From NCBI RefSeq assembly GCF_000715075.1, contig NC_134095.1:69259990-69323989 (forward strand): a DNA stretch of 64,000 bases, written 5' to 3'. Of this stretch, positions 35,335-43,853 are shown one piece after another. The notes under the pieces were generated by a model, which worked only from the letters and a program-made list of their open reading frames with translations, had not been told where the DNA came from and searched no databases. Origin of the DNA: Nicotiana tabacum (taxonomy: Eukaryota; Streptophyta; Magnoliopsida; Solanales; Solanaceae). Both the position numbers and the translations under genes were made by a program. Every line of letters begins with the position of its first letter. The stretch's first letter is position 1.

Positions 35335-36814
35335 CTACCAATTACTAATGTCAAAAAGCTAAATGTAAATATAATATGTACAGTAATCCAGTATTTAATC
35401 AAAATAGTAGGGCCACACCCCCACGAATAAAAGCTAGCATTGTTCCCAATGCTAACTACCAAATAAAACATCAAAAATCAGCAAAGGATATAGAGCGGCC
35501 CCTCAAGCCTCATCAAACTGGTCCCCAGCCTGCTGCTGCTGTGCTGCTGGGACAGGTGTCTGCTCCTGATCCGGCTCATCAACTGGTGGAACTGAAGAGG
35601 GCTCAACATCTGCAGTACTATACGGGCCCACATGAGCTGGAGCCACCTCGATAGCTATTCCCTCTGTGCTAGGGAGCTTTCTCTTCTTCCTTGGCCTATC
35701 CTCCTCTGCTTGTGGCTGCATTGCTGCTGGCTCTCCAGCTGGATCTCCAAATAGTAAGTCGAGTGGCATCTGATCCGCTAGCAGCTTGTCCACATCCACT
35801 CTCAACTGTGCAAATGACTCCTTGGAAGCTTTCTGCTTCCTTAGCTTCTTGTGCTCCTGAGCCAACTTTTCCAATGCCTTTCCATGTGCCCCAACCGCCT
35901 TTGTCAAGGCATCCTGCGTCGCCATCATCTTTTCCTGGTTGTCCAGGATCTTCTTCAATGCATCCTCAATGGAGGAGGGAATCTCAATAGTAGATGACGC
36001 TCCTTGTGCCTGCACAACAGTGGTCAAAGTGGACAACTTGGATATCGCAACTGACATCCAGTTGTTCAAACTGGCAAGGGAGTGAGTGAGCTGATTGGAA
36101 GTGAACCGGTGAGTCTTTGATGAAGAAATCCGGATTAGCTGCGACAGATGGACCAGTTGTGGAGGAAGGGCTTGGGGGCAGTGCCTCATCAGTAGTAGGC
36201 TCAGGGGGCTGCTCAATAGCAACTGGCTCTTCAGACTGGCCAGGTGCGGAGGAGGTAGAAGCTTGAGTCTTTTTGCCTCTCTTTGGGTTGTCCGGACCTA
36301 ACTGATCATACCACGAGTAGGGGGCCACTGGAGGTACCGTAACATCATATCGTTTCTTCTTCACTTTCAAATATCTGAAGTAAAGGGAGAGTGTGTTCGG
36401 AAAGGGGTAGTTTGTTTTTGTCTCATTACCGACAGTAGAAATCACTCTCGACATTATATTACCTACATTCAGAGGGAAACCCACCATGATAGATGCTACC
36501 AAGACAGCCCGAGGAAGGGGAACGGAGTGATCGTGCGTAGACGGGTCAAGTCGACTACACACGAAGGTCAACCACCCTTTTGCTTCAAAGTTGAGGGTGT
36601 TCCGAAAAATATTTTCCTGTGCCTTCAACCACACAGGGACTGTACCTGGAGCTGCTAAATGCTCGGCCAACCACGGACGAACCTCCTCTTTCATTGGTAG
36701 CATTTCAAGATACTGAGACTCGTCCTCTTCTTCAAATCCCAAGAAGTCATTCAGCGACTTCCCATCAAATATCACGATCTTGTCCCTCACTTTCGTTGCT
36801 TTGGAATCCCGAAC
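35335..36814 (-). pseudogene. Inverted copy of ORF3 (3' two thirds), unit 1
   Basis: The minus strand of this segment aligns base for base with 40783-42264 of the same unit in the opposite orientation. It includes the KEFYC-following part (DKIVIFDGKSLNDFLGFEEED), the coiled-coil region (LKKILDNQEKMMATQDALTK) and the KKRKLPSTEG basic run. Two frames overlap at about 35984-36222 because of one frameshift near the SADPD run. It has no start of its own and no terminator context. It joins pol at 36815 through GAAC followed by ATGGTGG. Confidence 0.9.
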
Positions 36815-38998
36815 ATGGTGGAGGACATTTTGGAGGTCTTCATGGATGATTTTATTGTGGTTGGGGACTCATTTGGTGATTGCTTGCAAAACTTGGATCG
36901 TGTGTTGGCCCGATGCGAAGACACAAACTTGGTTCTCAATTGGGATAAATGCCATTTTATAGTACAAGAAGGAATTGTGTTGGGTCACAAAATTTCAAAT
37001 AGAGGGATTGAGGTTGATAAGGCGAAAATTGAGGTTATCTCAAGGCTCCCTCCCCCTACTTCTGTCAAAGGGGTGAGGAGTTTTCTTGGTCACGCGGGTT
37101 TCTACAGAAGATTCATCAAAGACTTCTCTAAGGTAGTTAACCCGTTGTGTAAGTTGCTAGAGAAAAATGCCAAATATGTGTTAGATGAGAAATGTATGGA
37201 GGCTTTCGACCTTCTAAAGCAAAAGTTGACGATTACCCCGATCATTACTGCACCAAATTGGAGCTTGCCCTTTGAGCTCATGTGCAACGCTAGTGATGTT
37301 GTGGTGGGGGCGGTCTTGGGCCAAAGAATCAACAAAATGTTCCATCCGATGTACTACGCAAGTAAGACAATGAATGAAGCTCAAAGGAACTACACGGTCA
37401 CTGAGAAGGAATTGTTTGCCATTGTTTTTGCCATGGATAAGTTTCGCCCATACCTTATGGGGGCCAAAGTGATTATTCATACCGATCACGCCGCCCTTAG
37501 GTATTTTATGACGAAGAAAGATTCTAAAGCGAGGTTAATGAGATGGGTGCTTCTTCTTCAAGAATTTGATTTGGAGATTGTTGACAGAAAGGGTAGTGAA
37601 AATCAAGTGGCAGACCATTTGTCTCGATTGGAGGAGGAAGGGAGGCCTTTGGACGGCCTTGAGATAAATGATGCTTTTCCGGATGAACAACTCCTCTCGG
37701 TTTCAATGCTAGACATGTCATGGTTTGCCGACATTTCCAATTATCTTGTCACCAGTGTGGTGCCGTATGAGCTCTTTTCTAACCAAAGAAAGAAGCTCAA
37801 GCGGGATTGGTTGGACTACTATTGGGATGCGCCGTATCTTTTCAAAATTTGCACCGATGGTGTAATTCGCCGGTGTGTTTCCGAAGAAGAGAAATTGAGT
37901 ATTATGGAAGCTTGTCACTCTTTGCCCTATGGTGGCCATCATGGCGGGGCAAGGACGGCGTCTAAAGTGTTGAGTTGTGGTTTCTATTGGCTGTCGTTGT
38001 TCAAGGATGCTGGTGACTTTGTGAAAAGATGTGATGAATGCCAACGTGCCGGAGGGATTTCGAAGAAAGATGAGATGCCCCTTAACACAATCCTAGAGGT
38101 TGACATTTTTGATGTTTGGGGGATAGACTTTATGGGACCATTCGTAAGTTCTTGTGGCAACACTTACATCCTGGTAACGGTTGATTATGTGTCGAAATGG
38201 GTTGAGGCCATAGCTTTGCCAAATAATGAAACTCAAAGTGTGGTGGCGTTCTTGAAAAAGAGTATCTTCACGAGGTTTGGCACTCCACGTGCTATCATCA
38301 GTGACGGGGGTTCTCATTTTTGCAACCAGGCTTTTGACTCTTTGCTAGCCAAGTATGGGGTAAATCACAAGGTGACCACTCCTTATCATCCTCAAGCGAG
38401 TGGCCAAGTTGAAGTGTTCAACCGTGAGATCAAGAGTATTTTGTCCAAGACTGTCAATGCAAATAGGACCGACTAGTCGAAGAAATTGGATGATGCTCTT
38501 TGGGCTTATCGTACAGCTTTCAAAACTCTGATTGGTATGTCGTCGTATCGTTTGGTGTTTGGGAAGGCTTGTCATCTTCCGGTAGAATTGGAACATAAGG
38601 CTATGTGGGCTCTGAAAAAGTTGAACTTTTAATGGGATGTAGTTGCAAATCTCCGGGTTGAGCAATTTAATGAACTTGATGAGTTTAGGTTTCATGCTTA
38701 CTCTAGCTCGTCCTTGTATAAGGACAAGATGAAGTACCTTCATGACACGTATGCCCGAGGGAAGGAATTCAAAGTTGGTGACATGGTTCTTCTTTTCAAT
38801 TCCCGGTTGAGGTTATTTCCGGGCAAGCTGAAGTCTAAGTGAAGCGACCCTTTTGAAGTGTTTTGTGTAACTCCCTTTGGTGCTATTGATCTCAAAAATA
38901 AAAATAGTGAAGTTTTCCGAGTCAATGGGCATTGTGTCAAGCACTATTTGGGAAAGATTGATGACAGACACGTGGTGGCACGCATTCATTTGAAATGA
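36815..38998 (+). pseudogene. Athila-like pol (RT end, RNase H, integrase), unit 1
   Basis: The frame is open from 36815 to 38476 (553 codons). Domains are RT motif FMDDFIVVGD at the start (residues 9-18), FLGHAGFYRRFI (about 90), RNase H (LMCNASDVVVGAVLGQR at about 150, where the usual D of CDAS is N), HTDHAALRYF (about 220), HHCC zinc finger (HSLPYGGHHGG and CDECQRAGG), integrase core (GIDFMGPF, ISDGGSHF, HPQASGQVEVFNREI). Stops at 38474, 38632 and 38840 break the integrase C-terminus, which has no chromodomain. Gag, protease and RT fingers are absent. Confidence 0.9.
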
Positions 38999-42069: not shown

Positions 42070-43853
42070 GCTGGGGACCAGTTTGTTGAGGCTTGAGGGG
42101 CCTCTCTATATCCTTTGCTGATTTTTGATGTTTTATTTGGTAGTTAGCATTGGGAACAATGCTAGCTTTTATTCCTGGGGGTGTGGCCCTACTATTTTGA
42201 TTAACTGCTGGATTACTGTACATATTATCTTTACATTTAGCTTGTTGACATTAGTAATTGGTAGATGGTTTGTATATAACTGTTCATTCCAGATGCTCTT
42301 CAGACTCTATGTATATATGCATTCCCCCCTGGTTGTATATTCCACTCCCCTTTTGTACATATTCATTCGGTTTTCATTTTGTTTTTCTATTTTTCGATAA
42401 AATTCTTTGTCTTAGTTGCAAAGTTAGGCTCGTAGCCTTTTTGTCTTATTTTGGCGTTTTCAATAAGCCCTTGGTTTTCTTAACGCCACGATTCTTTCCA
42501 AGGGTAGATGTTGTGCGAACCGGGTGGCTCTTCCCAATGATAGATGGCGTGACAACCTTCTTAAGGGTTTGAGTCCGTTTTTGATTTCTCTTTTTTTTTA
42601 TTTTCAAGTTTTTATAGTTAAGGGTACCTCAGGCAAAGCCTCACTTGGATCTAACACATTTGCCTTTGATCCTATGGTCAAAGACATTATGTTGTGTTTA
42701 GGATGGTGAAAGTTGTAGCCTTGAGACTCTTGTTTTGACCAAACAATCATTATGTGGTCATTTTGGGCCATTGTGCGCTTGAATCATATCTAAGGTCGTT
42801 GTGGGCCCTCGATTCCATCTTAGGAAATCCTTGAGTGTGTGCAGTAAGAATTCGAATCGTGATCCCAAGTACCGAACCGATGGTCTAGAACTTGCCCTGA
42901 ATGTTTGTTGAGGTGAAATAATAGGTGGAACTTGACTTGTGACGTGATTATAGGCTCTCCTTGATCCAAAAGGCAAAATTTGAAAAATTTCCATGACCTA
43001 ACAATGAAATAATCCCTAGTTCAACCCTTTTGAGCCTTAAACCTTTTTCGTTCATGAACCAAGTTACAAGCCTACACCCGTTCTTAACGAAACCCTCTCT
43101 TGGCACCAAAATTTTCCCTTGAGTAAATGGCAAATATCTAAGTTTGGGGGGAGAGACAAGAAAGGCATCAATGTGGTAAAGTGAAAAAGGTGTGGAAAAG
43201 GGATAAAAAAGGAGAAAGGATTTGAATTGCAAAAGAAAGAGTGACAATGCGTCTCTCTAACCCCTTGAGAGAAGTGAATTACTCAATTGAGTCAAGAAAG
43301 TGTGCCAAAATAAATCAAAAGAAGTGCTTGAGGGAGGATTTGAACAAAAACACGTCCTACCTTTACCCAAAGCCTTCACAATGACTCCTCAAAAGCCCTA
43401 TATGATCTTGAGTTGATGGAAGCCTACCTTAGTGGATACTTACATAAAGGGCAAGCATATGGTACTTAGAGCCGGACTTAGGGCCTTTTCTTTGTGAGAG
43501 ATGAAAGAGAAGTTCATTCACCTCGATGTGTGTGCGAATACTCTAAAAGTTTAGGTTCACTCAGGGAAAGTCGAGGATGTGTGAGTTTGGGTTCCACAAT
43601 GACCAAAGAAATTGAGAAAGGTTCCTTGATGAAATGTGTCAACTCTTGATGCTCTTGCGTCGCACTTGATCCACAAGTTTACAAAGTTTAAATGTGTTAA
43701 TAATGCATTCGCATTGAGGGCAATTGTTAGTCCCAATTGAGGCTTATTGAGGTTTATTTAGGATAAACAGGAATTTCTCGAGTATTGTCCATTGAGGGGT
43801 AGGTCTCATTTTATTTTGCTTGAGGACAAGCAAAGGTTTAAGTTTGGGGGAGT
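42070..43853 (+). other. 3' untranslated region of unit 1
   Basis: The stretch is non-coding, with purine-rich pieces and a PPT-like copy AGTTTGGGGGGAGAG at 43141-43155, about 700 bases before the real PPT. It ends AGTTTGGGGGAGT. No gene motif is seen. Confidence 0.75.
43840..43853 (+). other. Polypurine tract, unit 1
   Basis: AAGTTTGGGGGAGT lies directly before the middle LTR. The unit 2 copy is at 54001-54014. Confidence 0.8.

Follow-up and report, generated by a model that had tools for sequence, protein, structure and literature searches.

An Athila-like three-LTR array with inverted ORF3 copies in Nicotiana tabacum, probably a defective rearrangement private to one locus

Background

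A natural hairpin derived from a faulty copy is one proposed trigger for the first recognition of long terminal repeat (LTR) retrotransposon families by plants, and the proposal comes from a DNA transposon of maize. The locus in question, Mu killer, is described as an inverted duplication of approximately 1300 bp in a MuDR derivative (PMC3440606). In Arabidopsis, artificial ATHILA5 hairpins led to RNAs of 21 and 24 nt, and CHG and CHH methylation was regained at ATHILA5 elements (PMC11410651). On the other hand, complexes of three LTRs flanked by a target-site duplication (TSD) were found for Angela, Squiq, and Opie and attributed to template switching (PMC1950507). Here, we analyzed 64,000 nt of Nicotiana tabacum (contig NC_134095.1, positions 69,259,990 to 69,323,989 of the forward strand; the whole stretch is termed the window), in which three LTRs enclose two retrotransposon units, each bearing an inverted copy of its third open reading frame (ORF3). 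The rbcL gene on contig C700 of the genome encodes a protein that agrees with PDB 1rlc/4rub, the tobacco enzyme, at 477 of 477 residues, in line with tobacco as the source. We take the array to be presumably Athila-like, following a preliminary description of the same DNA.

The array resembles Mu killer in that part of a transposon coding gene is duplicated in inverted orientation (approximately 1.3 kb there and 1.4–1.5 kb here) and in being a single locus with a proposed hairpin RNA (PMC3440606). Mu killer is a DNA transposon derivative whose silencing effect was demonstrated genetically (PMC3440606), whereas the array is an LTR retrotransposon with a predicted capacity for hairpin formation. 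The array further departs from Mu killer in its arms diverged by approximately 6%, a loop of approximately 3.9 kb, its own LTRs as possible promoters, and relatives that are less diverged than itself. With the artificial ATHILA5 hairpins, the array shares an inverted repeat of an Athila internal region, but those constructs were engineered, driven by 35S, equipped with a GUS spacer, and shown to yield small RNAs (PMC11410651). Three LTRs, two internal regions, and a flanking TSD are common to the array and the Angela, Squiq, and Opie complexes, for which no inversion inside an internal region was described (PMC1950507), whereas in both units of the array an inverted ORF3 takes the place of the 5′ part. 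Among the titles and abstract openings listed by the literature searches, none described an Athila or other LTR element in which an inverted ORF surrounds pol. We regard it as probable that the array is an Athila-like element rearranged at one place, likely once, and then duplicated, and that it is likely a defective dead end and not a family-wide silencer.

Structure of the array and its inverted arms

The array is organized as LTR–unit–LTR–unit–LTR, three LTRs around two units, with a single TSD. As ACCTA precedes LTR1 and follows LTR3, the array behaves as one insertion. Its features are listed below.

33809..33813 (left) and 55550-55554 (right), no strand: TSD ACCTA
33814..35319, plus strand: LTR1 (TGATAAC..GATCA), with TATAAATAG at 34432
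35320..35334, plus strand: start of the unit 1 primer binding site, truncated behind TGGTGCCGTT (10 nt of a presumed 18)
35335..36814, minus strand: unit 1 5′ arm, inverted ORF3 copy (self-comparison; PF20167 match on the minus strand)
36815..40782, plus strand: unit 1 loop, pol from mid-reverse transcriptase (RT) via RNase H and integrase, spacer, and the start of ORF3 (Pfam)
40783..42265, plus strand: unit 1 3′ arm, sense ORF3 (ORF 39889-42069, PF20167)
43854..45427, plus strand: LTR2, common to both units, beginning with TAATAAC, with TATAAATAG at 44467
45428..45509, plus strand: unit 2 leader of 82 nt with an intact primer binding site (leader match to ordinary copies)
45510..46901, minus strand: unit 2 5′ arm, inverted ORF3 copy (self-comparison)
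46902..50845, plus strand: unit 2 loop, pol and spacer (RT_RNaseH, Integrase_H2C2, rve)
50846..52239, plus strand: unit 2 3′ arm, sense ORF3 (self-comparison)
54015..55549, plus strand: LTR3, followed by the TSD ACCTA, with TATAAATAG at 54629

A BLASTN self-comparison of the window aligned 35334-36829 with 42265-40768 on the minus strand in unit 1 (93.86% identity over 1498 columns) and 45509-46916 with 52239-50831 on the minus strand in unit 2 (93.90% over 1410 columns). The arm coordinates of the preliminary description are thus correct, and the inverted repeats that it proposed between 35335-36814 and 40783-42264 and between 45510-46901 and 50846-52238 are real. The length and identity of the inverted repeats exclude a chance origin of the arm pairing.

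The LTR starts are spaced by 10,040 and 10,161 bp. LTR1 and LTR3 have TG..CA ends together with the 5-bp TSD, while LTR2 begins with TA; the canonical TG end is absent from this shared inner LTR, which starts at 43854 with TAATAAC and not TGATAAC. The primer binding site TGGCGCCGTTGCCGGGGA, presumably of the tRNA-Asp type, is present in unit 2 and cut in unit 1. Of 10 ordinary upstream regions, 7 have a leader that is 92.7-96.3% identical to that of unit 2. In unit 1, RVT_1 (from profile position 147), RT_RNaseH, Integrase_H2C2, and rve were detected in the loop. The order of RT, RNase H, and integrase is kept in ORF 36701-38476, from which the N-terminal part of RT is missing, and an extra ORF (39889-42069, PF20167) lies 3′ of the integrase. 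A Pfam scan of 10 unit ORFs gave no gag match. An A-rich stretch of approximately 100 bp (53240-53339) lies between ORF3 and LTR3 of unit 2 and is absent from unit 1.

The distance from the end of the 5′ LTR to the RT breakpoint amounts to 3552-3594 nt in five ordinary copies, compared with 1495 and 1474 nt in the two units. From this difference in spacing, the arm replaces the leader, the presumed gag/protease region, and the start of RT (approximately 3.57 kb in total). In the ordinary copy L049, two ORFs had no Pfam match at all, to gag or otherwise. Judging from the regions retained, neither unit would be autonomous.

Junctions and their uniqueness in the genome

Comparison with two ordinary RT copies placed the inner breakpoints between 36814 and 36815 in unit 1 and between 46901 and 46902 in unit 2, in agreement with the preliminary description. 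At this junction, which is the same in both units, the arm (..CCCGAAC) is joined to RT (..ATGGTGG) with two bases (AC) in common. The outer junctions are not alike: unit 1 retains 10 bases of the primer binding site, joined to the arm with 0-1 base in common, while in unit 2 the 82-nt leader is joined to the arm with two bases (TA) in common, and the unit 2 arm is shorter than that of unit 1 by approximately 88 bp. The two units are thus alike in their inner breakpoint but not in the start of the arm, which lies in the primer binding site of unit 1 and after the 82-nt leader of unit 2. The identical inner and differing outer breakpoints indicate that the inner edge arose once, whereas at least one unit acquired or reacquired its outer edge in an event of its own. 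The difference at the outer edge is not accounted for by a simple duplication.

We considered an assembly artefact, since misjoins are possible at long inverted repeats. Nevertheless, two units whose loops differ by a Kimura two-parameter (K80) distance of 0.045 possess a base-identical inner breakpoint, and the outer TSD is intact; an artefact is therefore highly improbable.

When the 4.0 Gb genome was searched with 35-nt patterns allowing up to 3 mismatches, the inner junction matched twice, both at this locus, and each outer junction matched once, in the window. Furthermore, among the 40 sequences scored of 3836 candidates for a 361-nt query spanning the inner junction, two crossed the junction (these units) and the other 38 began at it. 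Relatives are otherwise abundant, as there were 2754 candidates for ORF3 and 3053 for the LTR (40 scored in each case). Because the junctions match the genome only at this locus, the rearrangement is private to the locus and not the architecture of a family. A hairpin-bearing retrotransposon family was accordingly rejected, the three junctions having no match outside the locus. The earlier proposal that each Athila-like unit is built as an inverted repeat is thus correct for two of the two units here, but not for the family. Even if inert, the locus is an example of a three-LTR insertion that contains large inversions of the element's own 3′ gene; annotation tools relying on LTR pairs may miss such a structure.

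Origin of the inverted arms

The 5′ arms of both units formed one clade among 16 ordinary ORF3 copies with a support of 100/97, from which we infer a single origin of the inversion, most likely before the units separated. The three LTRs of the array grouped together as well (FastTree support of 0.993). In the favored reading, the inverted ORF3 copy of 1.4–1.5 kb would have replaced approximately 3.6 kb of 5′ sequence through template switching in reverse transcription or through break repair; the inversion would have come first and the duplication of the unit later, one unit acquiring a further outer breakpoint. The three-LTR outline attributed to template switching would equally result from unequal exchange between LTRs of sister chromatids.

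The K80 distance was 0.062-0.064 between arms and 0.045 between loops. Those between LTRs were 0.053 (LTR1-LTR3), 0.053 (LTR1-LTR2), and 0.047 (LTR2-LTR3). The divergence of the unit 1 arms did not differ significantly from that between LTR1 and LTR3 (P=0.26). As judged from the sequences, these divergences fit an inversion in the reverse-transcription cycle of the insertion, followed by unit duplication. Unlike in the template-switching insertions Angela, Squiq, and Opie (PMC1950507), the inner LTR of the array is at least as close to each outer LTR as the outer LTRs are to one another.

A second route within the same reading, whose probability overlaps with that of the reading as a whole, starts after integration: an ordinary element would have suffered a break, its repair would have drawn on an inverted piece of ORF3 from another copy, and duplication by unequal LTR exchange would have followed. 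As such exchange occurs between the LTRs of sister chromatids, the outer TSD would be kept. The near-blunt junctions (0-2 nt in common) are in line with this route, and so are the trees, in which holding the unit 1 arms together as sisters was rejected (p-AU of 0.003, approximately unbiased test), although the same constraint was not rejected for unit 2 (p-AU of 0.096). Likewise, each arm is 4.0-5.2% from the nearest ordinary copy and 5.9-6.1% from its own partner, and the 5′ arms have more private changes in common than the 3′ arms (7 and 1, respectively; 2 are common to all four arms). For three of the four arms, an ordinary copy was nearest, while the 5′ arm of unit 2 was nearest to that of unit 1. 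The idea that the arms are nearer to each other than to the family was rejected, since none of the four had its own partner as the nearest sequence. Against the post-integration route, the similarity between the unit 1 arm divergence and the LTR1-LTR3 divergence is expected from arms made in the same cycle, and the four arms grouped together, albeit weakly, in the best tree (77/66). We regard the post-integration route as possible but somewhat doubtful.

Predicted capacity to form a hairpin

TATAAATAG, a TATA motif on the plus strand at 34432 and 44467, faces the antisense arm, then the loop, and then the sense arm. The direction given in the preliminary description is therefore right, as a transcript from LTR1 or LTR2 would meet antisense ORF3 first. 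Because TATAAATAG is common, also lying inside both loops (39402 and 49482) and having 82,079 forward-strand occurrences genome-wide, it is weak evidence for a promoter. The arms were calculated to pair at 1431 of 1495 bases in unit 1 and 1352 of 1407 in unit 2, with duplex energies of -2814 and -2686 kcal/mol, respectively. Altogether, the anatomy of a long hairpin source that had been pointed out is present, namely an LTR with a TATA motif, antisense ORF3, approximately 3.9 kb of pol and spacer, and sense ORF3, with a predicted duplex. According to these calculations, a read-through RNA of either unit would likely fold into a long hairpin.

Due to the mismatch of approximately 6% between the arms, perfect pairing is limited: over the same span, 370 (unit 1) and 207 (unit 2) of 1387 24-nt windows were perfectly paired, and the full unit 1 arm had 376 of 1475. 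The perfectly paired 24-mers were largely found in at least one of the 16 ordinary copies (350/376 in unit 1 and 187/207 in unit 2), and therefore any small RNAs would fit the relatives. By analogy, the results of the ATHILA5 hairpins make the action of such small RNAs plausible. The locus is a concrete hairpin-type structure in a retrotransposon, and variants specific to each unit would allow small-RNA reads to be assigned.

These properties bear on the proposal that the array works as Mu killer does, in that an LTR-driven read-through RNA folds, is diced to 21-24 nt, and silences the Athila relatives in trans. The anatomy of the array, the direction of the TATA motif, the duplex energies, and the 24-mers found in ordinary copies are what such a locus would display. 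Mu killer itself has an inverted duplication of approximately 1300 bp, and artificial ATHILA5 hairpins yielded 21-/24-nt RNAs and methylation in Arabidopsis (PMC3440606; PMC11410651). On the other hand, AATAAA occurs just inside the antisense arms, at 35426 and 35462 in unit 1 and at 45513 and 45549 in unit 2, with a further one in the unit 1 loop at 38897. From their positions, the motifs near the starts of the antisense arms speak against efficient read-through. In large plant genomes, most LTR copies are silent, which also speaks against such an action of the array. Together with the tests described below, we consider a Mu-killer-like action unlikely. Quite unlikely, too, is a naturally arisen twin hairpin locus that is driven by its own LTR promoters and directs 21-24 nt RNAs at ORF3 in thousands of Athila relatives, as an LTR-retrotransposon counterpart of Mu killer.

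Indirect tests for silencing of relatives

The relatives to be dated were picked by similarity, not at random. Both LTRs were present in 5 of 10 fetched ordinary copies (the other five, with an LTR missing or partial, were dropped), and 8 further pairs were chosen from the LTR matches by a spacing of approximately 10-13 kb on one strand. A TSD was identified for 11 of the resulting 13 pairs (all 5 letters in 8 cases and 4 of 5 in the other 3); the two remaining pairs were not counted. The K80 distances of the 11 TSD-backed pairs ranged from 0.026 to 0.052 and were all lower than that between LTR1 and LTR3 of the array (0.053), seven of them being individually less diverged than the array (P<0.01). 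With transversions alone, the array (0.0180) also exceeded the pooled relatives (0.0096; P=0.0045). The lower LTR divergence of the relatives implies that the family likely kept inserting after the array arose. The pairs without a TSD had K80 distances of 0.027 (younger than the array) and 0.071 (older).

Methylation directed by a hairpin could leave a footprint in the arms, but this candidate was rejected, as no excess of CHH, CHG, or CG decay relative to transversions was observed. Differences per CHH site were not raised in the arms (0.0184 versus 0.0211 in the loop; P=0.59). Transversions were also higher in the arms than in the loop (0.0242 versus 0.0143; P=0.003); relative to them, CG, CHG, and CHH changes were all lower in the arms, the deficit for CHH having a P of 0.037. 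In the family, we compared ORF3 of 16 copies with pol of 26 of the 28 copies L011-L038 (L027 and L037 were dropped as short), and the ratios to transversions showed no excess in ORF3 over pol (CHH, 1.65 versus 2.03; CHG, 4.52 versus 4.84; CG, 6.69 versus 7.27).

As far as the sequences can tell, there is no sign of silencing in any of the three indirect tests. In the preliminary description, the array was suggested to silence its relatives as Mu killer does. The analogy holds for architecture and size but not for a silencing effect, for which the indirect proxies were negative: all 11 TSD-backed relatives, seven significantly, have less diverged LTRs and apparently inserted later, CHH decay is raised neither in the arms nor in the family ORF3, and the rearrangement is private. 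Moreover, both units lack the 5′ part of pol and bear AATAAA near the start of each antisense arm. From these observations, the array was probably ineffective as a silencer of the family.

Several points weigh against the favored reading of a rearrangement made once, duplicated, and left without effect on the family. First, one event alone does not account for everything, given that the outer breakpoints of the two units are not the same. Second, the LTR distances are too alike (0.047-0.053) to assign any pair of LTRs to a single reverse-transcription cycle. Third, the arms within a unit (169/2812 sites) are more diverged than the loops between units (171/3914; P=0.003), an excess that may stem from a greater age of the arms, from the acquisition of an arm from a different copy, or from more rapid decay in the arms. 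Fourth, the 7 versus 1 private changes hint that the arm came from a different copy, not from the same molecule. With respect to silencing, one of the two relatives without a TSD (K80 of 0.071) is older than the array, and the arms exceeded the loop in raw changes per site for both CG (0.107 versus 0.071; P=0.08) and CHG (0.064 versus 0.051; P=0.42). Finally, small-RNA activity is only weakly reflected in mutational decay, and brief or partial silencing would escape these tests.

One TSD-backed ordinary copy had LTRs (L061 and L062) that did not group with each other in the LTR tree, possibly due to gene conversion. L065 and L066 (contig C7), which lie 12 kb apart with no matching TSD and a K80 distance of 0.071, were sister to the LTR clade of the array.

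Host element and the rest of the window

The array is nested in another, older LTR element.

30913..63280, plus strand: outer LTR element hosting the array, with LTRs at 30913-33592 and 60610-63280 and the TSD TACAC at 30908-30912 and 63281-63285

The LTR pair of this element is 93.4% identical with a K80 distance of 0.062, slightly more diverged than LTR1 and LTR3 of the array (0.053), as nesting requires. Its ORFs at 57120-59208 matched RVP_2, RVT_1, and an integrase zinc domain. The left third of the window is another retroelement mosaic, mostly on the minus strand (RVP_2, RVT_1, and SH3_Tf2-1), with pieces including 13101-15837 and 6998-10621. A head-to-tail duplication of 2.65 kb with 88.9% identity was found at 20376-23024 and 23030-25692.

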